From: Gyrodactylus bullatarudis
Taxonomy: Eukaryota > Platyhelminthes > Monogenea > Gyrodactylidea > Gyrodactylidae
DNA length: 64,000 bases
Assembly (NCBI GenBank): GCA_012064415.1
Contig: SSNU01000235.1
Location: 124,001 to 188,000 of the forward strand
Direction of reading: 5' to 3'
Made by a program: the position numbers and the translations under genes. Of the stretch, positions 7,301 through 61,514 are shown piece after piece (the stretch's first letter is position 1; every line of letters starts with the position of its first letter). The notes under the pieces were generated by a model. The model saw nothing but the letters and a program-made list of their open reading frames with translations. It was not told the DNA's origin and searched no databases.

Positions 7301-10300
7301 TTTTAATACAATTCGAAATATTTCACACAATAACTTAATAACTTTTACGGCCGGAAATTTCAAAATTACCAAAATTGAATTGACTATCCCAGTACCGAAA
7401 CGTCTGGTTATATTCCAATTGAGTATATGTTTACTAAAGTCTCATTGAAGATACCAGATCTTATCAAGTTCCTTTTACAGTAAAACATTTCTAGGCTTCT
7501 GAGAAGAAAAATGGCAAAAATCTTAGTAATTTTATTTCAAAATCTTTGTTTCTACCCAATCTATTAGGAGGTTCTGGACCATGAATCACTTGAATTCTCC
7601 TAAGATTCTGACACACAGGCTAGAAATTGAAAAATCTCTCTTGCATTTTCGAATTTCTTCCATTACCAAAGATTCTTTTTTCTTCCGTGATTGACAGCTT
7701 CATTGTTTTCCATACTCTCAGTGCTACTTGTTAAATGCAATAAACATCTTGACGGGGGTTGTATCTCCCTCTCATCAATACACCTAGAAATAATTGAAAA
7801 TATAATTCCAACCGAAATACATGTCCTTCATATATATGTAATCCTTTTTTTATCGATTGTACTGAAGTAAATCTCGATCCTTAGTTGAAGCACCCTCCAG
7901 AAAAATCATCTGTTGATGAAAAATGAAATTTCCCTTTTATGCCCATCAATAAACTAATGATGTGGTCTTCTGTTTGTTTTTTTACGAGTATTATGTAACT
8001 ATAAACATTTCATGTATGAAATTGTTATTGTCACATGTACAATGAAATACATGTGATTCTTCTAGTTTGATATAATGATGCAGTGAACATTTTGAAAGCA
8101 ACATGTAACTGGGAAATTGACATTTCTTTCACAGGAACAAAATATGACTAGAGTCTTATGCTGTAATTGATTCTATTTGATTTCAGACTATTTAGAATCA
8201 CTCTCGACAAAGCTGTGAAATCTTAAGTTTGGACACAATTTTCTAATGAAAGTGAATTTGGGTTGAAATCAAGTTAATAATAATAATATTTATTAAACAA
8301 TACATGTGTTATCTATATAAAAATTAAATAGATTCTTCAGTTTTGTGGAAATTTATAAATTATAAAGTTTTTTAAATTCTTTTTTAAATTCATCATTATC
8401 AAGAGTTTTCATCTTATGATTAAGTTTTTTAAATATGTTTTTGGCTTTGTTGAAAATTGATAGCTTTTTTAGATTGCCATATTCAGGAACATTGGAGCGT
8501 AGGCCTTGACGATTGGAGTTAGCCAGGGGTGAGAGTTTGATTAGGGTAATTGTTTTGAGTTCTCTTCTTAGCCACAAGGAGTTCTTCGTGGATTTCATTC
8601 CAGTTTGGTATGTTGATGACAAAAGGCGCGTAAATCTGTTGCATGCAGTTTGTATTTTTTTAGACCATTTGCCACATTCAGGGTTCCAGATTGCAGAACA
8701 GTATTCAATTACTGGTCTAGCATAAACTTTGAATAAAAGTAGTTTCATGCTGTCGATTTTGATGCATTTGTGAATGTGGATGAGCCGGCCAATGAATTTT
8801 TTAATAATTTCTTTATAGTGATCAACAAAATCAAGTTTCCATAAATAAGTAACCCCAAGGTCCTTAATTATAGTTTTATGGTGAATTTTATTTTGGTTGA
8901 TGTAGATATTTAAATCAGTGATCCTTGATTCATTTGGAGTCGAGTAGAATGATTTTTCTATGTTAGGGGACAATCCAAAGCTGATTAATTTGTTGATGAT
9001 TGTTGATATTTCTGAATTTATAATATTTGTGTTATAGGTACCATCAAAATCAAAGACTATTTTAAAGTCGTCAGTATATTTAAAAATTTTGAATGAGGAA
9101 GGTTGAATATCAGCAAATACAATATTGAAATGTAGAGGTCCAACTCTGGATCCTTGAGGGACTCCTGATTTGATTATTTGACTATATGATCTTTGGCCAT
9201 TGCATTCGACAAATTGATTCCTATTGATGAGATAGTTTTCGAGATAGTTTAAAAGTTTACAGCAGATACCTTGTTTATGACAGGCTTCAAGTATAGTTGG
9301 GAAGTAGACTTTATCAAAGGCCTTACTAAGGTCAATGTATACAACAACTATTTTTTTCTTTTTGCTTTTTAAGCATGAGATGTAGCTTAGAAATTGATAA
9401 AGATTAGTTTCACATGATTTACCCCTACAGAAGCCATGTTGATTGGGGTCAATTATGTTAATGTTTACAGTTTTCCTTATTTGAATAAACAGGAAGGAAT
9501 CAATGATTCTCATGAGTGTTGACAGTAACGAGGACTGTAATTTGGGACTCTAGGATTTTACAGGTAGTTTATCAATTTGCGGATTGGCGCCAACTTCTCA
9601 TTTTTTCGAATTTTGAGTTTAAAAATTTCATTGTTTTGCTAAAAGGGATTGTTCCTTCAGGATTACAATTAGATAACAAGATGGACATCTGATAATCGAA
9701 ATTTTCATGATTTTTAGTCTAATTGATTTTCTTGTCTAATCTTGATCCTGAAAAACCTTTAGCTCAAAGATCGAAAAAAGGAACATGTGGCGCCATCAAA
9801 ATTTGAAATTGATATTTTTCGTACAATACTTTTCTCTAGAATTTCTTCCTTCCAACAGTAAAAGTAGGAATTATGATCTGGATTCCCAAAAAAAAAAAAT
9901 AAAATTCTTAATGATTTCTCTTTATTCTGTTTCCAGTTGGGTCTTTGTACATCTCGAATAAGAAAAGGAGTAAATTAATTACTATTATTATAATAATTAT
10001 AGATATAGTTTTTATCACTATAATTATACACAAAAACTTCATCATAAAATAAAGTGTGTCGAAGAATTCTGTTTCTACCCACAATAGACATCTTCTTCTC
10101 TTGGTTATCTTGCTCTTGGTAAATTATGGCTCTCACCAAAATCATTACAGATCAGATTGAAAATAACAAGATGAATATTTTTTGAAAAAAACTAAGATCC
10201 ATCTAGAAATAAGCTTTTTTTGAGGTTCTTTAGGGATTTTTTGGCAAAAAGAATCAAATATAAGTTATTTTTTACGTTAGATCACTGAAAATATTTATCA

Positions 10301-13300: not shown

Positions 13301-16300
13301 TTCTTCGCTTAAAATAAGTATAGATAGGTTCAATCGAAATACAACCAATCTTTTTCCAAAGCTTCTTCCACACGTTTCGATACTGATATATTTAGTACCT
13401 TCTTCAGTGGATGAGACGCTTGTTACCTGAAATCTCTTCAATTTTATCTAAAAACCTTAGCATTCCTATTGGTCCAGATCTAAAAAAAACCATTAAAAAT
13501 TAAATAAACCTTAAAACCAATCAGAAGACCTGATCAAATTTTAAAAAAACCTGAAATTAATGATCTGCTAAACCATCATCCACTGAAGAAGGTACTTGAC
13601 TATCTCAGTATCGGAACGTCTGAAAGAGGCGTTGGAGAAAGGTCGGTTTTATTCCGATTAAATCTACTTTTACTAATATTTATTGAAGATTTCAGATTCC
13701 ATCATGGAACAAAAAAAATTTACCTTCTTCCCTCTGCCCCTTTCAAATTTATTATTCTTTGAAATCATCATATTTATGATCAGGGTTTCTAAAGCAAGTT
13801 GACAAGAAGATGAGTATTTACTTTTTTTACAAAAAACTCAATATTTTTCTCCGGAAAGCCTGGAAAAAAATTATTTTTGGAATTCCATAATAAAATCAAG
13901 TTGTGGATAATTCTTGAAAAAATTCAATCTGACCAAAATTAGGCCGTTCTTCGAATTTCAAAAATGCACCAAATTTTCATTTTTTTAACTTTTGGGCTCC
14001 TTGAGTCCCTTCCTTTTTTTCTATTAGTTTTTCACGCAATGTACTTTTAAATTAGTTTCATTAGTTGACTATCTTGGTGGTGTAAAATAAGAGAAAAGAG
14101 ACAAAATTAGGCATCAAAATTTATTGAGCTACAAAATTATGTAAAGCTAACTGATATGAAGTTGGGAATCTATAATTTTAACTGAAATCTCGATATTTTC
14201 ATCAAGAATTCGAATTTTTTAAAGATTTTCTGGAATCCTTCTCATGCTGCCTACTTTTACCATTTGAAGAAAGAAAATCTGAAAAAAATCATTTTTTCAA
14301 ATTCCCATTTGGCGCCAAAATCGCATTTTTTCGAACTTTGAACTGAAAACTTTTGTTGATTTGAAAGTGAGAGAGTGATCAGAAATTGATTTTCAGGATC
14401 AAGATTAGACAAGAAAATCAATTCAACTGAATCTGATCTTATGCTTAACCTTATTATCGTTTGGGAGCGGAATTTCGTTTTTTTGATCATTTTCACTACT
14501 TTAAAATCAATGATATTTCGATACTTGATAATACTACTGATGAACCATAAAGAAATGTACATTTGGTGAATAAAACTTTTTCTTCTATAACTACAAATAT
14601 GATTTTAAGCGGATTTTCGGACGTTTTTGATAAATTACGTGAATCATATCAACGCCAAAATATTTCGATAATTCAAAATCTCTCGAAAATGGGGTAACTG
14701 TCGATAACTTGACGGTGCTAGTCAGCTTTCTTGTCTAATCTTAATCTTGAAAATCAATTTTTGATCACACTCCGACTTTCAAATCAACAAAAGTTTTCAG
14801 CTCAAAGTTCGAAAAAATGTGATTTTGGCGCCAAATGGGAATTTGAAAAAATGATTTTTTTTCAGATTTTCTTTCTTCAAATGGTAAAAGTAGGCAGCAT
14901 GAGAAGGATTCCAGAAAATCTTTAAAAAATTCGAATTCTTGATGAAAATATCGAGATTTCAGTTAAAATTATAGATTCCCAACTTCATAATTCATAAAGC
15001 TAGCCTGTCACTGATGCTAACGAAAGTAACTTAGATAAGGGTGATTTTTTTGAAATCTAGTCAAATATTTTAAAAATATTTAGAACGTTTTTATCGTAAA
15101 CCCATTTGCTGAGGCCTAAAAAAATTAAAATAACTTTCATTCATAGAATTGGTGATCATAAAAAAAATAATGTTTAATTTCTCTCACCGACTGAAATCAC
15201 CAAAAATGTTGAACTCAAATTCCAAAAAAAATTGAAAACCGCGCCAAATCGTTATTTTAAAATCCTCCTATTCCTTACGATTTTTTTTCTTAAATCAGTT
15301 AATGTGTTTCTTTTGAACCGGTTTTCAATGAATTATCAGACCTTGATGAAAAAATAGAATTTTGCGCAAATTCCTGCATTCATCTAGAATAGCTGTATTT
15401 TAAAATTCTCAGAATTTTTTATTAAATTCAATTTGAAGAAGAGTAAAATTTCATACGTATCTAATAAGGCTTTCAGTTGCAGTAGACGAAAAAATCATAA
15501 CACAGTCTAGCAAAAAAAGTAGGTAACGATAAAATTTGGAGGAATGGTAGAGTTTGATGTGAAAGTAAAAAATATCAACCAAAAAAATTTTTCAACGTGT
15601 AGTTTTCGAGTAATTTGACATTTAGTACGAAAAAAATTGAGTCAAATTTTATCCTATAGAATTTTTATTTCTCAATCAATATTCATAAAAAACATACCAT
15701 TTTGAAGAGGAGAAAATTTGCTACAATCCCTTGCCTGACCACTTTGAGCTTCGACGTATAAATTCCAAGATATTTCCAATAACAGTGAAATTTGTTCAAA
15801 AATTGAAAAAAAATGAAAAATTTCAAAAGCTTTTTTCAGTCCTTTACCGATGGCCTAGAAAATTTTCCTTCCAATCCTAGATAGGGAGATAGTTGAAATT
15901 TATTTTGTTGCTTTTAAATTTCCAAAAAAGTTAATTATATGGCGTGTATTCGTGAAAATGTATACAATTTTACGGTTTTTCAAAATTTACAATTTCTGAT
16001 GTGAATGAACTTAGAAAAAATTTTGAGAAGAATATTTACTCTAATTGTAAATTCTTCCATTGAAATATTTGTAAAATTCATTCGCATCAAATTTTTTCAT
16101 GAAATGGAACCTTTGAACGTTTCTTCCAGAAACCAGTGCTCTTTTAATAGATCTAAATTCTGCATCATCTGCGGATTATTTGGCTCAAAGAAAAATCCTC
16201 TCCTTGAATTATCTGATAAAACAATTGAAAAAGCTTTTGTTAGATATTCTATTAAACTTGAAGTTAAACCCTATACTCCTGACAAGATTTGCAAGTGTTG

Positions 16301-19300
16301 TCATGCAAAAGTATTTTCAAATAGAAATCTTAAAATAAAACCGAAAAATTGGAGAAACCCTATTAATCATGATGAAAACTGTTTCTTTTGTAACTCCATA
16401 AAGATTCCTTTTCAAAAACAAAAACATCATTTATACGTATCATATTCTGATAGCGAACCTATACTACCTAAGCAAGAAGATAAAGAAGAAAGTCAAAATG
16501 AATGTAATCTTAAGGATATAATTTTCAAATCGATTAAAAAGTTTAACATACCAAATTAATCCAGTTTTATGGAGACTATTCATTGATAAATCAGTGAACA
16601 GTTTGAAATTCGTTTTATTGTCTAATGGGAATAAACTTAAGCCGGTACCAATCGCATATTCAAGATCATGTATTGAAGATTACGAAACCATTAAAGAGAT
16701 TCTGGAACTAACTAACTATAAGGAATATTTATGGAAAATAATTTCAGATTTTAAAATGTGCAATATATTAAGTGGTTTATCCAGTTCTGGAAATTCAAAG
16801 TTTCCATGCCATAGATGTTTGTTTGATTCGAAATCAAATAATTTCAAAAATAACAAATGGCCTAAAAGGAACCAATTGATTGAGGAATATAACCAAATCA
16901 GAAGACCTTTGGTAAAAAGCCACCTTTTGTTGCCTCCTCCTTTGCACATAATGCTTGGTTTATTTCAACAAATCTCTAAAAACCTTTCAATCGACGCATT
17001 GATGTTTATAAAACGTAAATACCCAAAAGTATCAGAAGTTAAAATCAAAAATGGTATTCTAGTTGGGCCGAAAATAAGGCAATTAATTAAGGATGAAAGA
17101 TTTTCAAATTTTCTGAATCCATTTGAAAAATGGGCTATTGAAAGCTTCAAGAAATTAATGGGAGGATTTTTTGGAAAGAGAAAGTCTAGAAATTATAAAA
17201 GATATATTAAAGAATTTTTATCAATCTATGAGTACTTGGGATGCAATATGACATTAAAAACCCACTATTTGAAATGTCATTTGGACGCATTTCCTAGTGG
17301 ACCCCTATCAAAAAATTCAGATGAACAGGGCGAGCATTTTCATAAATTGATGAAGAAAATAGAAGAAAGATATTTTGGAAAGAAGGATATCAATATGCTA
17401 GCTGATTATTGCTGGCAGATTTCCTAAAAGTATAATTTTTTAAAAATAAAATATTATTTTCAAAAACCTAATATTCTTTTTAAATGGAAACCTGATCAGT
17501 TTTAAAACAGAATCCTTCTAAATTTTATTTTTTGCTATGAAAGTAGAAATATTCTTCTCAAAATTTTTTCTAAGTTCATTCACATCAGAAATTGTAAATT
17601 TTGAAAAACCGTAAAATTGTATACATTTTCACGAATACACGCCATATAATTAACTTTTTTGGAAATTTAAAAGCAACAAAATAAATTTCAACTATCTCCC
17701 TATCTAGGATTGGAAGGAAAATTTTCTAGGCCATCGGTAAAGGACTGAAAAAAGCTTTTGAAATTTTTCATTTTTTTTCAATTTTTGAACAAATTTCACT
17801 GTTATTGGAAATATCTTGGAATTTATACGTCGAAGCTCAAAGTGGTCAGGCAAGGGATTGTAGCAAATTTTCTCCTCTTCAAAATGGTATGTTTTTTATG
17901 AATATTGATTGAGAAATAAAAATTCTATAGGATAAAATTTGACTCAATTTTTTTCGTACTAAATGTCAAATTACTCGAAAACTACACGTTGAAAAATTTT
18001 TTTGGTTGATATTTTTTACTTTCACATCAAACTCTACCATTCCTCCAAATTTTATCGTTACCTACTTTTTTTGCTAGACTGTGTAATTCAGTGATAATTT
18101 CATTGAACCAAAACTCATGAGTTAAAATCTAAAATTATTTTACTAACTTTTGATATCAAGATAATTATGGCTGAAATAAAAAAATTTAATGATTGTAACC
18201 ATGTTTTTCTCCAAGATTACCTAGACTTTAAATTTTTATAGTAATAAATAATTCCAACATTTAATTACTTCACGTAGTTTTGTCTTTATCTTCTAATTAC
18301 TCTTCTTGATCAATGATCCTCATGAAGTTACGCTATCATGAGAAATAATAAACTTATGACAAGACAAATAGTTTTTCTTTAATTTTTAAATTGTCTATTA
18401 AACCCTGTTTTTCTTTCTGTCATTGTATATATTTTAATGGGAAAAAGTAAGAAATATTATGTTAGTTTAACTATTTTTCTCATACGATCTTGAATAATAC
18501 TCAAGTATTTCGATAGACAAATTTCAGCCTTTGCTAGAACCGCGTCTAGAGAGAATTAAATTTATTTTTTAATTGTTTCCTTCTGAATTTATCATGTAAT
18601 TTCTACTCCTTCTAGTTTACTGGGGAATCAAAATTGCCCATTCTGAAGAATCATGTTTGCCATGAGGTCGTCAGTGAGATGACGAAAAGAAGATCGTTCT
18701 TCTACCACATGGACAAGGATACAAGCCACAATTCCCACAGTACAGTCACACTCAGAAAAACAAAGTACAACAGTCGAGCGAAAATTGCCAGTGTTTCATC
18801 AGGTAAGCTTTTCGAATTTTTCAAAATTTTCTACTCCTATTACCTATTAAAATTTTGATAAATTTAAGTCAAAAGATATTCCTTTAAAAACAAGGATTAT
18901 AAAAATTATAGTGATTTTTCTAGTGTAATATATTTCATCACTTGAAGGAAAATTAAAATTAAGATTAGAATAAAAACATTTATAGATTACCCTGTTAAAG
19001 AGTCAATTTCTAATCCATATTTATTTTAGAATCAACTGCAGAATCTTTGATTAATAATCGGCCAGTTTCCATGTCAGCCTCGTATCATTCATCAGTTTTA
19101 CGAAGGAAAAAAGACCTTCTTCCCTCTAATAATAACAATGATTTTGACAACGACAAATCCCCGGATAATAGTGAGAGTTTATGCATTGTCGGTTCAAATG
19201 CATCCTCATTTAGACGCCCCAGACGAAACACTCTTATGGCATACGCCAAGAATACTAGCAATAGTATTAATTCTCAAAAAGGTTTGTCCCCATTTATTGA

Positions 19301-42400: not shown

Positions 42401-45400
42401 TTTTGTAAATATGACCTTCCTTAAAACTAGATTCTAGCTTTTACTTATCATATACTTTTATTTTTCTCTTGAATATTGTTGGGGTTTGAAATTCATAACC
42501 GGGGCTAAGGAGAACTAGAGTATTAGACCCTTTATTATTAATAATAAATTAATTTCTAATTACTAATTATTAATTAAAAAACCGGTCGTTCTTTAATTAT
42601 TCTGTTGATCTTAGCTAGCTAAGTTGGTCTGAAATATTTAATATTTATTCCTCTCTGCCCTTTTTGTACACCTTGATTACACCATGTATTAGTCATAATA
42701 AAATTTAAGAATGTTTAGAATTATAGATTTATTTCATAGTAATTATATCATAAATATAAGAATATATAAAATCAAAAATTTTCAAGATATGTATATAAAT
42801 CTCTTTTAGCAAATTGAATGTCTTTTCGGGCAATTTCGTTAAATAATGATAGAAGTCTATCGAAGAAGTACAGGGATTTTAGTGCATAATTTAAAGGTCT
42901 ATTCAATTGAAGACATTTGAATGTTGTCATTAGCAAGCTGGAGACATCTCTAGTTCCTTCGGTGTCTCAGAAGTCTTATTTTTGCAAACCCGTTTGATGG
43001 AATGTTACATAAACGAAGAAACCGTTTTTGAATGGCTTCAAGAACAAAAGACATTGATATGACAGAGGGACTTCAAATAGTAGAACAGTATTCAATGGCA
43101 GGTCGAGCATATGTTTTAAAGAGGAAAATGTTTAGCTGCATTGTTTTTGCAGGACTGTGGATGCGCACAGTCCTTGCAGCAAAAATATTAGCAATCGTTT
43201 TTATGTAATTATCGAAACGCAAGTTGTAATCATATTCAAGACCAAGATCACAAACTAAAAATTTTCTTTCAAAAAACTGGATATTAATATTATCATATAT
43301 ATTATTCGAGGGATGAGAAAAAGGAATAAGGTAAAAACTTTTTCCAAAGTTAATTTATAAAGAAAAATAGGACAAGTCTTGTTGCGATTTTGAAATAAAG
43401 TTCATAACAAGATCGGTATCAACAGCATTGTCAGGAAACGAAAAACATATTTTCAAGTCGTCAGCAAATTTGAAAAGTTTAATATTGTCAATATTTGATT
43501 GGACTTTTGAAAAAATAAGATTAAATAATAATGGACCAATACGGCTTCCCTGGGGGACACCAGAGGTAATTTCACGAATTTTTGTTATTGATAGAGACAT
43601 ATTGCGACCGAGACGAAAAGAATAAGTTGATTACATTTAAAAGGTTATAATCATTAACATACTCTGATAGAACATTCATAATGGAGCTGAAAGAGATAGA
43701 ATCGAATGCTTTTTTTAAATCAATGTATATAACTAAATTAAGAATATTTAAGGATTTACATTCTTGAATGTGGGAAAAGAAAGCTAGGAGATTGGTCTCA
43801 GTAGAACGAGAGTTAATAAACCCATGTTGAGTTGGATCAATTCGATTAATATTAATGTGTTTTTTCAATAAGAATAAAATTATTGAGTCCAAAATACAAG
43901 TTAGTTTAGGCAACAAAGAAATAGGACGAAAATCATTTACGGATTCAGGAGATTTGTTCTTGGGGATAGGGTTAATTTTGATTAATAGTAACTCTTTTGG
44001 TAAAGAAAATTTAATAAAAATGGTATAATAATAAAAAGTATACAGGAGATATTTGAAATTAGGGGAACAGTACAATCTTGTTGGTTTCTTTGGAATAGTT
44101 TTAGTAGACAGCTTAATAATATGGTACAAAAATAGGCTAATGTTAAGATATTCATTGTAGTATTTTGAGAGGGAAGAAATAAGTTCAAAGTTTAGGATTT
44201 TTAGGTTCTTTGAGGGAATAACAGACTGATCAGGATTAATATCGATATATCCTAATAAGGAGTAAGGATCTTTACCAGATATAATATCAAGGGAATAATA
44301 TGACACATCTAAAAAGTCAGGCTTCAGTATTACATCAAGAATATTATTACTGGCTTTGTGAGTGGGGTGGCTAACAATCTGATTGATTCCATAGTAATGA
44401 AAAAATCTAGCAAGGAAATTCTTTGGAAAATTCCAATTTTCTTTAGGTAGATTAAGATCACCAATTACGAATGGGAGTAGGTTAAGATCCATGATAGGCT
44501 TTAACTTATTGACAAGGAGAATATCATCAGGTTTACGTGAAAGGGGAGAATGATAAATACAAATGATCAAATAATTAATATCACCGGATGATATGGTAAA
44601 TGCAATGTATTCTATCTTACTAGAAAGACTATCAGTAGCAATAATTTGGAATTTAATGTTTTAAATGTATACTAAGGTGCCAACATGGTATCTTACGATC
44701 GCATCTAATAAAGGAATAGTTATTTATGAATAAAGTATTATCAAGACATGAGTCGTTCAACCAAGTTTCTGTCAGGAATATGATATCAAAGTTATTGAAT
44801 GTAATAAATTTTTTTAACATGTCAAAAATTGTGAAAATGGACATAACATTGGCATAAAATAAAGGATAAACGCTTAGAATTAGATTCAGGTTTATGGTTA
44901 AAATAGTTAATTCGGATCTTGGACTGGAAATAATTTCAACTTACGTCTTTTGGCCTCTATCATACTTTGAGATAAATCACGACCAATATAAATTTTCTTT
45001 AGTTCATCAATTTGAGATATTTTTTTTCATGAATACGGTATAAGGAATACGAGAGGTGAAAACGACTAAGTCTTTTGGGTTTTTTATCAAAAGATTTACC
45101 AAATCTAAAGTGGCAATGTATAGATGGTTTTGGAGTACCAGGGCAAGCAGCCTCAAAGATTTTAGCACAGATATTTTCAACATCAGCATCTTCTGGAGAA
45201 TTGTATATCATCATATTATTTTCACGAAGAGTTTCTTCTAATAGTGGTGTTTATTCAAATATCATTAGCTCAACCCCTCTTGACTATTAGAAAAAACCTC
45301 TTTTGATAAATTCATGAATTTTATTAGCCAATAATACAAATAAGTACAAATTTTCACAATACCAAACCTGTCATTGTTATAAAACTAATACAAATGAATA

Positions 45401-57400: not shown

Positions 57401-60400
57401 AATAATGCCGAGCTTCTTCAAAAATATTTTCTGATAATGAAGGAATCTTGGCTAATCCATAGAACATTTGCCCCCTCTTGTTTTCTAGTAATTCTTCTGA
57501 ATGACAAAGAGACTGAGGGCTTTTTAACATCGATGAAATGAAAACGAATCGCTTGCGGTAATTTTTCATGTCATCGATAATAAAAAGACCAACACGATTC
57601 GAGAGAAATAAGAGGGGGCAACTGTTTTCTAATTTAACCGGAATCTTCATGAGGAATTAGAAGTCAAGTGAATATTTAGTGATAAAGCTTATATTTCACC
57701 GGATCTCATCAGACTAATACACAATGGCTTAATATTTATATTTAATTTATGAGAATAGGCAAACTGTTTTTGATGACATTTAGGTAGGAAAAGTTTATTG
57801 GAAATTGGGTTGTTATTTGGATTTCTTCCAATCTGAATTAAGGGGTCGTTTGGAAAATTTTCATTATTTACAAATCAATATTTAGATCAGATTGTGATTT
57901 ACAGAGTGGAAGAGTTATCAAATTTTTTTCATTATCACAAATAGACAAGAACGTCAAATCTTTCTAAATGTGATTCAGCTCAGTATGATGTCTAGATAGT
58001 GAGTTTTGATTTCTTGATCAAAAACAGCATCCTTGTCAAAATCAATGAAATTTCGATAATTCAAAATCTCTCAAAAATGGGGTAACTGTCGGTAATTTGA
58101 CGGTGCTATTCAGCTTTCTTGTCTAATCTTGATCCTGAATAAACTCTTTTAAACCTCCAACTTTCAAATCAATAAAAATTTTCGCTTCAAAGTTCGACAA
58201 AATAGGATTTTGGCGCCAAATCGATATTTGAAAATTTTTTTTCATTAATTAATTTTTTTTCAGAATTTTTTCCCAACTTCATATCAACCAACTTTATGTC
58301 CATTTTCCGATTTTTTGAACCTTCATACCCCTACCAGTCTGATCAATTAAAGTTTAAATTGAAGCCCACAATGGGAACTTGCATTAGTAATATTTTTGGC
58401 CAAATAACTTGGTATCTTCATAGCTAAATTTTGGTTTTTATAAAAATTGTGAAATAGTCTCGGCACCGTAAGGGTTAATAACTTTATTTTAAATTAGTTT
58501 TTTATCATCTTTTAAAATGAATCTTCTTTTATTTTTAAGAATTTCATGAAAAATTTATCTCTTTTTATGTACATTGTACATCGATAAACTTCCCAAAATT
58601 ACGCATAATCTTTTATTTTCGTATCTCTCTTATAAGTCTTGATATATAGGAAAAAAGGATTTTAAATCTGATTCCTTCAAAATCATTCAAGAGTTGATAA
58701 CAGGATGGAAATTTCAACAGAATATAAAGTTTGCCATGTAACTAATGAGTCTATTCCTCTAGGTAAATGATCAAGCATTGATGGATGCAGCTCAAAGTCC
58801 CATAGGTACAAGTCAAGAGAGTTTTGTTTCATTACACGAATCTTCTGACTTGTCCTTGCCTCTATTTGTACCCACGGATGGGTATGCCATTGATGCCAAT
58901 TCTTCCCAGCAAAATTTTCAATTTCGAACGGATTCTGTCATTGAATTTTTAAGGCCTAGTGTGGATAGAAATCATATTTTGCTTTCGCGAAATGCTGATA
59001 AAGAAAATAGAAATTTAATCTGGAATGCTTTCATGTTACCTACCCCTGAAGATGCCGATGTAAGTGCCAAGACTAGCTGATAATTGAAAAAATGAGTAAT
59101 CATAATTTTAAAAATTTACTCAAAAAGTCACAAAGACAGTGGAATTTTTTCATCATCCTCAAGAATTACAATCAAAACTCTATTTCTATAAATAGATTGA
59201 GTAATCACAAAAAACTTGTTTCATATGACTTTAATCATTGTTGGTTTTATTCGCTCTCTTGATTAAAAAAAGTATATATACTCATTGAAACGACGTAATA
59301 ACCAGTTATATTTTTAATCTTTTTTCTAGTATCAACTTGATGAAAACGAAAAATTGAGCTACAATCAAGGAACAAAGATGGCCAAAAATAATCAACCCAT
59401 TTATGCTACATCTGATAGAAAGAAATTGAATCCAACTAGCACTGATATTGACGAAGATTCGGGCAAAGAGTTGAAAACATTTCAACCTAATCTCGACTAT
59501 AAGCGATTGGCCAAGGATGCCAACATAAAAATCGAAAACATTCAACCAATTTTATTGAGAAAGACTAGTAAATCCATTGGATTGAGTATTCTCTCAGCAA
59601 AGGTGAGTCTATACTAAACAATTTAAGGACGTTTAATAACTACTCTTTTTGATGAAATGAGTGTCCTGATTTCCTTAAAAATATTTTGACCCTGCTGACT
59701 CGAAGACATGCTTGTGTTGAGACAAATAGGAATTATCCAACCAATATTGACCAATGGGGGTTAAGTGTGCTCAATGAGCACTGCTCATACTCTTGGAGCA
59801 TCTATTGTCTGATTATTAATTGGTGATTGAGTAGGGGCTTGTACTTCCGGTTGAGAAAAATACCTCTTTCGATCATCAATTGAAAAAAACTATATTAATG
59901 AATAGTGCAGCACCTATACTTACAAAGTTTACTAGAAATAATTCGTTCTAGGTGCTTAGGTAATATATCCCACAGGATATTCTTATTTGGTAATGGATTA
60001 GCCATGTCGCTGAATGTTACAGCTTACTAATGGATCCCACCGAGACTGGTACGAAAGAAACTCACAAAGCATTTAGAAATAATCTAAGTATACATATATG
60101 GTGGACATATACGCGCGTTTCGTCCTCTTTTGGACTCGTCAGTATGCCACAATCTGGGATTTGAACCTAGGACCTCTCGTCCAATGCTCAATCCACTCGT
60201 CCAACATCCCATGCAATTCGGATTATTTCTATATGCTCTGGCGTACCCCTAAGGTTTTTCTAACTAATGAATACTGCAGTAAAATAGTACTTACAAAGGA
60301 TGACTAGAAATAATTCGTTCTAGGTGCTTAGGTAATATATCCCACAAGAGGACGAAACGCGCGTATATGTCCACCATATATGTATACTTAGATTATTTCT

Positions 60401-61514
60401 AAATGCTTTGTGAGTTTCTTTCGTACCAGTCTCGGTGGGATCCATTAGTAAGCTGTAACATTCAGCGACATGGCTAATCCATTACCAAATAAGAATATCC
60501 TGTGGGATATATTACCTAAGCACCTAGAACGAATTATTTCTAGCAAAAACTATATTCTTTTTGTAGCCTGTTGGTCCAAATAGCAATTATGGAATCTACG
60601 TCAAGGATATAATACCAAATGGTTCTGCCGAGGCAGATGGAAGAATAGCCATTGGTGACCAATTATTGGCAATTGGCGAGGAGTCTCTAATTGGAGTTGA
60701 AAAGAGTGAGGATGTTGGACAGATAATGCAAGATAACGTTAGGAAAGATGGCTATGTCCCAATAGTCATAGGTAAAGAGGCAGCAATGTTACACGGAGTC
60801 TATCAACTCCTTGGCCAAACTGAAAAGCAAGAAGATAAATCAACCCTCTCGTCTAGCCAAGATATCATGACAAGGAAAGATAATGAGGTAACTTTTTTCA
60901 AGCTCTTTATTATGCAAAATTCCCGTTCAACCGGACTTGAATTCAAGAGAAATTATTTTTTCATTTAGAATTCTGATTCTCTAAGTGAAGACATAAAGAA
61001 TATGAAAAATTTCAGCAGTGAAACCAAGTTCGATCATGTTCCAAGTAAGAGTCATCAATCGACCAATCAGAACAAAGATAGTGGATTCATGGAGACAGAT
61101 GAAGAGCTCTCAAAAAATACTAATGAGAAAACTGTGAGTTTCCACTATCAATAACAAGTTTATTTTCATCCTATTGATTCATAAGATTTGTCTATTTTGA
61201 TCTATAAAATACAATGATTCACTGGGTTTTGTGTTGGATTGAAATCCCTATGCAGTGATTTCGAAAATATTCATTGCCAAGAAATATTTCCTTTATTTAA
61301 TGAATAAATTTAATTTAATTAAAATCTAAAGGATCCAAAACCAGTGAAAGTGAGTCCTGGATCATTTACAGTCATTGATCATTCTCATAATGAATCCCAC
61401 CCCACCCCCAATACATTTATTAAATCACATCATATTTCACATAATATTTATTCATCATTCAAGAATTTCAAAGATAAATTTAATTCACGAATTCACATCA
61501 ATCAAATTTTGTAG
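36407..61514 (+). CDS. cno: afadin / canoe (AF6), junctional scaffold
   Basis: Afadin links Rap/Ras GTPases and nectins to the actin cytoskeleton at adherens junctions. Exons: 36407-36484, 37247-37442, 40093-40235, 41994-42093, 42158-42271, 48736-48928, 50554-50881, 52502-52840, 52905-53040, 53124-53266, 53741-54013, 54331-54702, 56104-56274, 58763-59059, 59330-59602, 60567-60887, 60969-61133, and possibly 61332-61514. Phases agree throughout, giving 1214 residues to 61133. Domains in order: RA1 (about 27-140; FGIIRFYFQAADGKYFSKCI, VEKFHPDLNML), basic Lys/Ser linker, RA2 (about 211-380), FHA (about 365-500; LLLNGQRVNG), DIL (about 542-805; FQLFAQLFHAISAWVFNAI) and PDZ (about 1030-1125; SIGLSI, GIYVKDIIPNGSAEADGRI, GDQLLAI). 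The last exon has a weak acceptor. If real, the protein ends at about 1274 residues and lacks most of the long C-terminal region of known afadins; otherwise the gene continues past the window. Confidence 0.93.
38434..38990. mobile_element. second copy of the piggyBac-type MITE (ends degenerate)
   Basis: ACGAAATTTTATGAAAATG, ATAATTTCATCAGGGTCTGA, GACTCAATTAATGTCAAAAA, AGATGTTGAAGATTTAAAGG and TTTGTGATAAACTATC match the 27207-27878 element in the same order. The left end is missing. The right end reads AAGGG then TTAA near 38983-38990. Located in afadin intron 2. Confidence 0.65.
39455..39680. repeat. family C fold-back repeat, left-arm fragment
   Basis: AAAGCTGACATGTGCTATTT, AAAATTTCTCTCCGGATGG and TTTGAGCTAAAAATTATTTT match family C left arms. 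The remaining half is absent. Confidence 0.5.
42640..45240 (-). mobile_element. decayed LINE (CR1/jockey-like) with frame 1, endonuclease and RT pieces
   Basis: The minus-strand element lies in the afadin intron 42272-48735. From its 5' side: 45214-44999 has ENNMMIYNSPEDADVENI, typical of LINE frame 1 proteins. 44844-44653 has FDIIFLTETWLND (endonuclease start). 44570-43572 holds endonuclease and reverse transcriptase. 43600-43355 holds the catalytic RT motif. About 43140-42980 decodes to YARPAIEYCSTIWSP, then a diverged tail. The 3' end probably lies near 42640, where AGGAATAAATATTAAATATT (minus strand) matches a second tail at 45715-45735 in opposite orientation. It is broken by stops and frame changes. 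Confidence 0.8.
43355..44570 (-). pseudogene. LINE endonuclease-reverse transcriptase remnant
   Basis: Two overlapping frames (44570-43572 and 43600-43355). The endonuclease block FVIGDLNLPKENW is followed by DVILKPDFLDVSYY. The expected SDH motif is replaced by SGKDPYSLL. The linker between endonuclease and RT is much shorter than usual, indicating an internal deletion. RT motifs then follow: NDFRPISLLPKL, DPTQHGFINSRSTETNL, YIDLKKAFDS (A), and in the second frame GVPQGSRIGPLLFNLIF (B) and LFKFADDLKI (C). Plus-strand frames such as 43428-43625 are shadows. Confidence 0.85.
45420..45605 (+). pseudogene. fragment resembling the C-terminal region of KRBA2/Ginger-like integrase proteins
   Basis: A 61-codon frame from ATG 45420. 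Its core IGDSILVPILEIERLN, then SSVIDEKNGSFKIVTQHREL and MCRSDL, fits the pattern GD-V-VPI--VDR...GVI......Y.I.T..G.L....R..F. I know that pattern from domesticated and transposon-borne integrase-like proteins that carry this segment after the DDE core. Nothing of the catalytic core is nearby. It is a transposon relic in an afadin intron; the assignment is tentative. Confidence 0.4.
45690..45760 (+). repeat. LINE-tail-like repeat, inverted relative to 42610-42690
   Basis: GTGTACAAAAAGGGCAAAGA, GGAATAAATATTAAATATCT and CTAGCTAGCTAA match the complement of 42610-42690 with few changes. Either two LINE tails in opposite orientation or terminal inverted repeats of a larger composite. Confidence 0.6.
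47777..48540. repeat. relic of the long-TIR transposon arm, interrupted by a family B repeat
   Basis: 47777-47965 matches the outer TIR (GCAAAAAAAGTGGGG, AAAATTTGGAGGGCCGGTAG, AGTTTTCGAGTAATTTAAAA, CTTCTCAATCAATATT), with internal deletions. 48390-48540 matches its inner part (AATATTTTCCTTCCAATATT, GATGCTTTTGAAATCTC). Between them, from AAAGCTAGTTAATATGAAGA at about 47966 to about 48350, is the left half of a family B repeat with GATTAGACAAATATG and the TCGGTTTTCTTG block. Confidence 0.65.
48929..50553 (+). other. afadin intron, no recognised element
   Basis: 1.6 kb between the two RA2 exons, AT-rich with a CTATCTATCTATCTCTCT microsatellite near 50323-50342. The 71-codon frame at 49266-49481 is likely chance. 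Confidence 0.4.
51003..51720. repeat. fold-back repeat family C, complete copy
   Basis: Arms at 51010-51250 and 51490-51715 are inverted copies: GACATGAAGATGAGAATTTA, CTCGATATTTTTCTCCAGAT, CGGAATGAGCTTATAAGGTG, AATTCCCACTTTTTCA and complements. The right end reads CTTCATATCAACTAGCTTTA, the same terminal sequence as family B, so the two families are probably related. The centre has GGGAAATCGAACCATTTG. The 98-codon frame 51211-51507 is a by-product. Confidence 0.75.
54703..56103 (+). other. afadin intron with a ~75-bp inverted repeat pair
   Basis: 55328-55400 and 55715-55790 are inverted copies (TATTTTCTAAATTGTGTTTG, GTTTTTGAGATAAA, AAAACCGAATTT). The 315 bp between them has a GC-richer part with GATTCGAATTTCTGCCCGGC near 55560-55580 that faintly resembles a tRNA T-arm in antisense, but I cannot fold it into a tRNA. 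Probably a small fold-back element. Confidence 0.5.
57930..58294. repeat. family B fold-back repeat, right half
   Basis: ATGGGGTAACTGTCGGTAAT, TTGACGGTGCTATTCAGC, TTCTTGTCTAATCTTGATCC, TTTTGGCGCCAAATCG and CCCAACTTCATATCAACC match 14690-14990 closely. The left arm is missing or decayed. Confidence 0.7.
60101..60150 (-). ncRNA. type-I hammerhead ribozyme
   Basis: On the minus strand, 5' to 3': GUGGCAUA (stem I), CUGACGA (core), GUCC-AAAAGA-GGAC (stem II and loop), GAAA (core), a minimal stem III CG-CG-CG, GUA as the cleavage triplet, then UAUGUCCAC, which pairs with GUGGCAUA with one bulged U. All invariant core positions are present: CUGANGA, the GAAA box, the A15.1-U16.1 pair and an H at 17. 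Both ends lie in stem I, so it is type I. The very short stem III is the form known from schistosome Sm-alpha repeats and Penelope-like elements, which often work as dimers. Cleavage is predicted after the A of GUA, at minus-strand position 60110. Confidence 0.9.
60150..60212 (-). promoter_or_regulatory. tRNA-like head with Pol III A and B box-like sequences
   Basis: On the minus strand, TGGACGAGTGG (60203-60193) resembles an A box. GGTTCAAATCC (60167-60157) is a near-perfect B box, 25 nt downstream. It ends a few bases before the ribozyme. The spacing is shorter than in a real tRNA and no acceptor stem can be drawn, so this is a tRNA-derived promoter, not a functional tRNA gene. Confidence 0.6.
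60346..60374 (+). other. half hammerhead in opposite orientation
   Basis: On the plus strand AAGAGGACGAAACGCGCG followed by UAUAUGUCCAC repeats the 3' half of the ribozyme (part of loop II, GGAC, GAAA, stem III, cleavage site). The sequence upstream is the unrelated unit end TATATCCCACA. There is no CUGANGA core, so it should be inactive alone. Confidence 0.75.

Follow-up and report, generated by a model that had tools for sequence, protein, structure and literature searches.

The closest described systems to the element reported here are the Sm-alpha and Sj-alpha repeats of schistosomes, the animal non-LTR retrozymes and the GIY-YIG Penelope-like elements. Sm-alpha comes from a flatworm host, as does the present element, and carries a type I hammerhead ribozyme. 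Its size is similar (a 335-bp Sm-alpha-like repeat is given in PMC8490949), and its head is tRNA-like, thousands of copies having first been called tRNA-Gln-TTG (PMC2770079). Animal non-LTR retrozymes are described as non-coding, low-GC repeats of about 170 to 400 nt with a type I hammerhead (PMC7229834), arranged as direct dimers to multimers. In a 2020 review, the repeats of animal hammerhead retrozymes are described as carrying no motif that would reveal their partner retrotransposon, and Penelope elements are named as the likely movers (PMC7761336). In the literature found, the Penelope link of hammerhead elements was a proposal only, and a search combining hammerhead ribozyme with monogenean returned no paper. 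Published Penelope insertions have inverted pLTRs, an optional tail on one of them and target duplications of 8 to 10 bp (PMC3846280), and a purified Penelope protein is described as cutting both target strands and extending them from two internal start sites that lie next to each other (PMC11167929).

The locus analyzed here lies within a 64-kb stretch of DNA (the window), and its anatomy resembles parts of each of these systems. It is very probably a non-autonomous, Sm-alpha-like hammerhead retroelement, related to the animal retrozymes, that GIY-YIG Penelope-like machinery placed in antisense orientation within an intron of afadin.

Results

A profile search of the window against Rfam gave one hammerhead match (RF00163) at the gathering score of 34 bits or above, located at 60148-60104 on the minus strand with 38.3 bits and an E value of 4.2e-6 for the 64 kb. 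The ribozyme itself was placed at 60101..60150 (minus) from this match, the core letters and the predicted fold. The core motifs CUGACGA and GAAA and the cleavage triplet GUA were all found on the minus strand. The hammerhead is close to the Rfam consensus, in which the triplet is GUC. Read from the sequence, stem II has 4 bp (GUCC/GGAC) with the loop AAAAGA, stem III has 2 bp with the loop GCGC, and stem I has 8 bp ending in the outermost pair 60150/60101; the open end lies at stem I, consistent with type I. The cut is predicted between 60110 and 60109. An earlier note, made from the letters alone, had claimed a complete type I hammerhead on this strand with a 4-bp stem II, a minimal stem III and an 8-bp stem I at the outermost bases, and all of this was borne out, except that stem I is interrupted by a bulged U at 60105.

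Unconstrained folding recovered stems I and II at -12 kcal/mol (z = -0.91). Since 33 of 200 shuffles folded equally well, the folding energy alone provides no evidence. Among sibling copies, which are too alike for covariation, two stem pairs were changed on both sides, compared with 1.8 in shuffles, and 96.9% of the stem II cells were still paired. Conservation of the core columns did not clearly exceed that of the other columns (0.960 versus 0.940), with 2386 of 10000 random column sets scoring as high. Judged from the hammerhead sequence, RNA of the element should cleave itself.

The ribozyme pattern was found, within three mismatches, at at least 139 places in the 77.3-Mb genome (471 contigs), and the reversed pattern at none, which excludes a chance origin. 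In the COX1 gene of this genome, 12 in-frame TGA codons occur and the three AAA codons listed align with Asn sites of a COX1 from the PDB, in agreement with genetic code 9 (flatworms or echinoderms); a search for SSU rRNA found none. For two schistosomes, about 38,500 and about 5,000 hammerhead candidates have been given (PMC2770079). The genome search with an Infernal-type hammerhead model that the earlier note had proposed yielded at least 57 Rfam matches at an E value of 1e-3 or better, the best 73 of 11180 candidates being scored. The surrounding DNA is also repeated, with at least 136 matches (best 40 of 952 candidates scored). The suggestion that such ribozymes work as tandem dimers found no support in this family, as no same-strand pair within 1 kb was present among the 100 places listed of the 139.

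Comparison of copies defined a unit of about 370 bp, running from GTTAG to ATTCATTA in the order promoter-like boxes, ribozyme, body and 3′ tail; in the L037 copy it measures 369 bp with 41.7% GC. In size, type I hammerhead and low GC, this non-coding unit agrees with the animal retrozymes. Exact matches to the unit junction CACTATTCATTAGTTAGNAAAACC numbered 12 genome-wide (reversed control, 0). By eye, 8 nt of the head that several other copies contain are missing from the window copy. A B-box-like motif, GGTTCAAATCC, lies at 60157..60167 (minus) and is the only match to GGTTCRANNCC on either strand of the window. The A-box-like motif TGGACGAGTGG at 60193..60203 (minus) is weak, with one mismatch, and unspecific, the two strands of the window holding 383 and 381 such matches. 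Of the tRNA-like promoter claimed directly upstream of the ribozyme, promoter-like boxes were seen just upstream, but no tRNA was called there by ARAGORN at default settings; relaxed settings gave tRNA calls all over the sequences examined. A run of seven T at 59883..59889 (minus), just past the 3′ end of the element, may serve as a pol III stop. No open frame of 90 aa or more was found in 59897-60544, so the element has no reverse transcriptase (RT) or GIY-YIG of its own and is not a Penelope-like element by encoded protein. In several copies with different neighbors, arms as well as upstream partial units break off on their 5′ side at unit positions U287-288 (window about 60345-60349).

The ribozyme is part of a composite insertion of 648 bp at 59897..60544, of which both outer ends are 3′ ends of the element (60544 is one extra base). 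It is flanked by a 12-bp target-site duplication, AAAAACTATATT, at 59885..59896 on the left and 60545..60556 on the right. In minus-strand order, the insertion consists of an inverted arm, a partial unit and a full unit. The full unit, 59897..60265 (minus), has its head at 60265 and a tailed 3′ end at 59897; the 3′ tail (59897..59928, minus) is present on this arm only. The partial unit at 60266..60345 (minus; 60345 is approximate) lies upstream in direct tandem with it, and the second arm, inverted and head-to-head, occupies 60346..60544 (plus; 60346 is approximate), without a tail and without the 5′ half of the ribozyme. The two arms have 206 nt in common that are 99% complementary, and they are 99.0% identical to each other, compared with a median of 92.7% to other copies. 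A head-to-head inverted copy, a partial tandem, a tail on one side and a short duplication are likewise described for GIY-YIG Penelope-like elements (PMC3846280).

Of four plus-strand frames tested near the insertion, three contained FHA, DIL or PDZ domains and the fourth had no Pfam match. This domain set fits an afadin-like host gene, which we take to be afadin. The exon with the PDZ domain is read from 60567, 22 bp past the end of the element and 10 bp past the right target duplication. With the host frames on the plus strand and the ribozyme on the minus strand, the ribozyme is antisense to the afadin-like gene. The plus-strand arm begins inside the ribozyme loop; it retains the 3′ half alone, which scores 18.9 bits and contains no CUGANGA, and the afadin pre-mRNA therefore has no complete hammerhead here. 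Both the location in an afadin intron and the antisense placement, with a host pre-mRNA that is not self-cleaved, had been correctly recognized in the earlier note. The inverted repeat, the target-site duplication and the partial tandem had gone unnoticed there. The near-perfect inverted repeat 59928-60133/60342-60547 would place a double-stranded hairpin of about 206 bp in the afadin pre-mRNA.

To describe insertion anatomy across the family, 62 copy rows were compiled after seven repeat loci were omitted, and a set of 52 insertions was obtained by removing five fragments of ≤150 bp, four rows belonging to L064-L066, and L030, which duplicates the L020 place. As the searches scored best candidates only, the sample is weighted to young copies. 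Thirty-one of the 52 were head-to-head and 21 were not, with a single 3′ end; among opposite-strand rows, 26 of 27 were head-to-head and one was tail-to-tail. The table behind this count enters L020 and L030, which are one place, separately, gives two rows to each of four loci and includes one pair 952 bp apart. The two arms of an insertion overlap by up to about 240 nt, and the arm joints vary from copy to copy. Direct-order units amounted to about 1.25 per insertion at most in the 62 rows, so tandems were partial only and the direct dimers or multimers of animal non-LTR retrozymes were not seen. Exact target duplications of 11 to 13 bp were present in 14 of the 52 (counted in a 53-row table with one place twice), the longest match in 2756 mismatched flank pairings being 10 bp.

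The outer 3′ ends clustered at two sites separated by about 33 nt. Of 83 mapped ends, four lying no further along than an alignment gap (U171) were excluded. U324-346 and U360-369 each held 34 of the other 79, and 11 fell in the roughly 165 positions left. In 9 of the 31 head-to-head insertions, an end lay outside the two sites. Of the 22 that could be resolved, 21 used each 3′ site once with either query copy, i.e., carried exactly one tail (binomial P = 5.5e-6 at even odds). The sole exception, L007, appeared by eye to have a tail with an internal gap.

Twelve further loci were then chosen by hand down a list of 32 one-mismatch places. Five were head-to-head and two of these could be resolved; the one-tail pattern was followed by neither with one query copy (both short/short) and by one of two with the other (L102, long/short), while L099 was short/short with both. 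In L102, a 12-bp duplication follows the tail, which by eye has a gap inside it. These copies are older, with an exact duplication of ≥11 bp kept in only 1 of 12. Pooled with the first set, 21 or 22 of 24 insertions fit (binomial P = 1.4e-4 or 1.8e-5), and the follow-up set is too old and too small to confirm the one-tail rule.

Penelope elements of the same genome were examined in the same way. There were 19 GIY-YIG matches, including L069, which has RT and GIY-YIG in one frame. Eight opposite-strand neighbor pairs within 5 kb were present in the match table, all head-to-head, and with three from fetched loci, 11 pairs were read. Nine could be resolved at both ends, and all nine had exactly one tail. 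Here ends reaching P260 or further were counted as long, 4 of the 9 long ends stopping at P264-266, short of P284-286. Exact shared flanks measured 11 to 15 bp in 8 of 11 pairs and ≥10 bp in 9 of 11; exact duplications of 11 to 14 bp accompanied 7 of the 9 one-tailed pairs, and the longest shared flank in 110 mismatched pairings was 10 bp. A short opposite-strand piece at L084, outside the 11 pairs, was tail-to-tail. In the L066 family, the two sites at which the pLTRs end are separated by 57 nt, compared with a tail of about 33 nt in the hammerhead element.

A letter scan of the pLTRs of L062, L063, L064, L066, L067, L069 and L071 revealed a hammerhead-like motif, CUGAUGA...GAAA, with a very short stem II. 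An Rfam hammerhead search of 10 Penelope loci up to an E value of 0.5 gave one match only, which belonged to the neighboring element in L064, where the Penelope copy appears nested inside a hammerhead element. No similarity was found between the 3′ region of the element and Penelope pLTRs beyond such nested or neighboring copies. By sequence, the element is not a Penelope hammerhead, the motif of the pLTRs being a different one. L067 and L071 have AAAA instead of GAAA at the site closest to the core of the pLTR motif. The pLTRs are more alike between Penelope families than are the coding parts (67 to 76% in several pairs).

Elsewhere in the window, non-LTR-type RT fragments are present at 8353-9549 and 43572-44660 (minus), 700-bp pieces of which matched 45 and 48 times. 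At 16005-17427, there are two overlapping open frames of 184 and 301 aa, the latter without a Pfam match at an E value of 0.01.

Discussion

The insertion anatomy was weighed against three other explanations. The short size and the A/B-box-like head would agree with a LINE-mobilized SINE of tRNA origin whose 5′ inversions arose by twin priming, and LINE-type RT copies are present in the window. Twin priming splits one RNA into non-overlapping parts, whereas here the arms overlap by up to about 240 nt and a 3′ end lies on either outer side. Two LINE queries (700-bp pieces, the LINE 3′ ends being unmapped) gave no head-to-head pairs, the match tables (48 and 45 matches) listing no neighbor on the opposite strand within 5 kb. 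On these grounds LINE twin priming was rejected, and this origin is considered very unlikely. The inverted-repeat outer ends of head-to-head copies, many with target duplications, could also be expected of a foldback or MITE-like DNA transposon with the arms as terminal inverted repeats and the ribozyme as a passenger. This explanation was likewise rejected and is extremely improbable, given that 21 of 52 insertions have a single 3′ end and that the joints between arms differ among copies.

A canonical animal retrozyme, in which tandem arrays are transcribed, cut to monomers, circularized and moved by an unidentified RT, differs from the preferred reading mainly in the partner. It accounts for the type I hammerhead, the unit size and GC content of the L037 copy and the fixed junction at 12 places, but it does not readily explain the lack of same-strand hammerheads within 1 kb among the listed places, where collapse in the assembly is possible, or the low number of direct-order units. 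It is judged very unlikely. By comparison with animal retrozymes described as direct multimers, the element has partial tandems and inverted arms.

From its insertion anatomy, the element instead appears to have been moved by Penelope machinery, because the Penelope elements of this genome show the same anatomy, one-tailed in 9 of 9 cases and with short duplications. It differs from them in encoding neither RT nor endonuclease and in its hammerhead. Under this Penelope reading, the internal A/B-box-like promoter would drive RNA synthesis, and the hammerhead would cut the RNA, with multimeric or circular RNA being formed; the fixed unit junction suggests RNA templates longer than one unit. Penelope RT/endonuclease, acting in trans, would cut both target strands, and each cut end would prime a copy with an internal start on the RNA; the end positions suggest that one copy begins at the tail end and the other some 33 nt deeper. 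The two cDNAs would meet head-to-head, leaving the target duplication of about 12 bp that is seen in the anatomy. With both strands primed and the cDNAs joined in this way, the insertion would thus be a two-sided target-primed product rather than a simple SINE. The two starts on both strands reported for the purified Penelope protein (PMC11167929) would yield just such a head-to-head, one-tail product.

Whether this applies to animal hammerhead retrozymes in general, Sm-alpha included, is an even call: they would be SINE-like Penelope partners, and reverse transcription coupled across the two target strands, with a single start on each, would begin at two fixed positions of a multimeric or circular ribozyme RNA and give a head-to-head product with exactly one tail. 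Such insertions are absent from the Sm-alpha descriptions found, the comparison being with published descriptions alone. If the proposal is true, the two-start, both-strand property described for one purified Penelope protein (PMC11167929) extends to a non-coding passenger. Insertion anatomy provides a genome-only test of the mobilizing partner, which here points to Penelope, and the outer-end test can be applied to the genome of any flatworm, mussel or salamander.

At L065:2670-2735, another hammerhead-like stretch was observed, which is divergent and is preceded at nearly the same distance by a B-box-like motif, GGTTCGAATTC. Because of this nearly equal spacing, it may represent a second family of the same hammerhead and B-box design.
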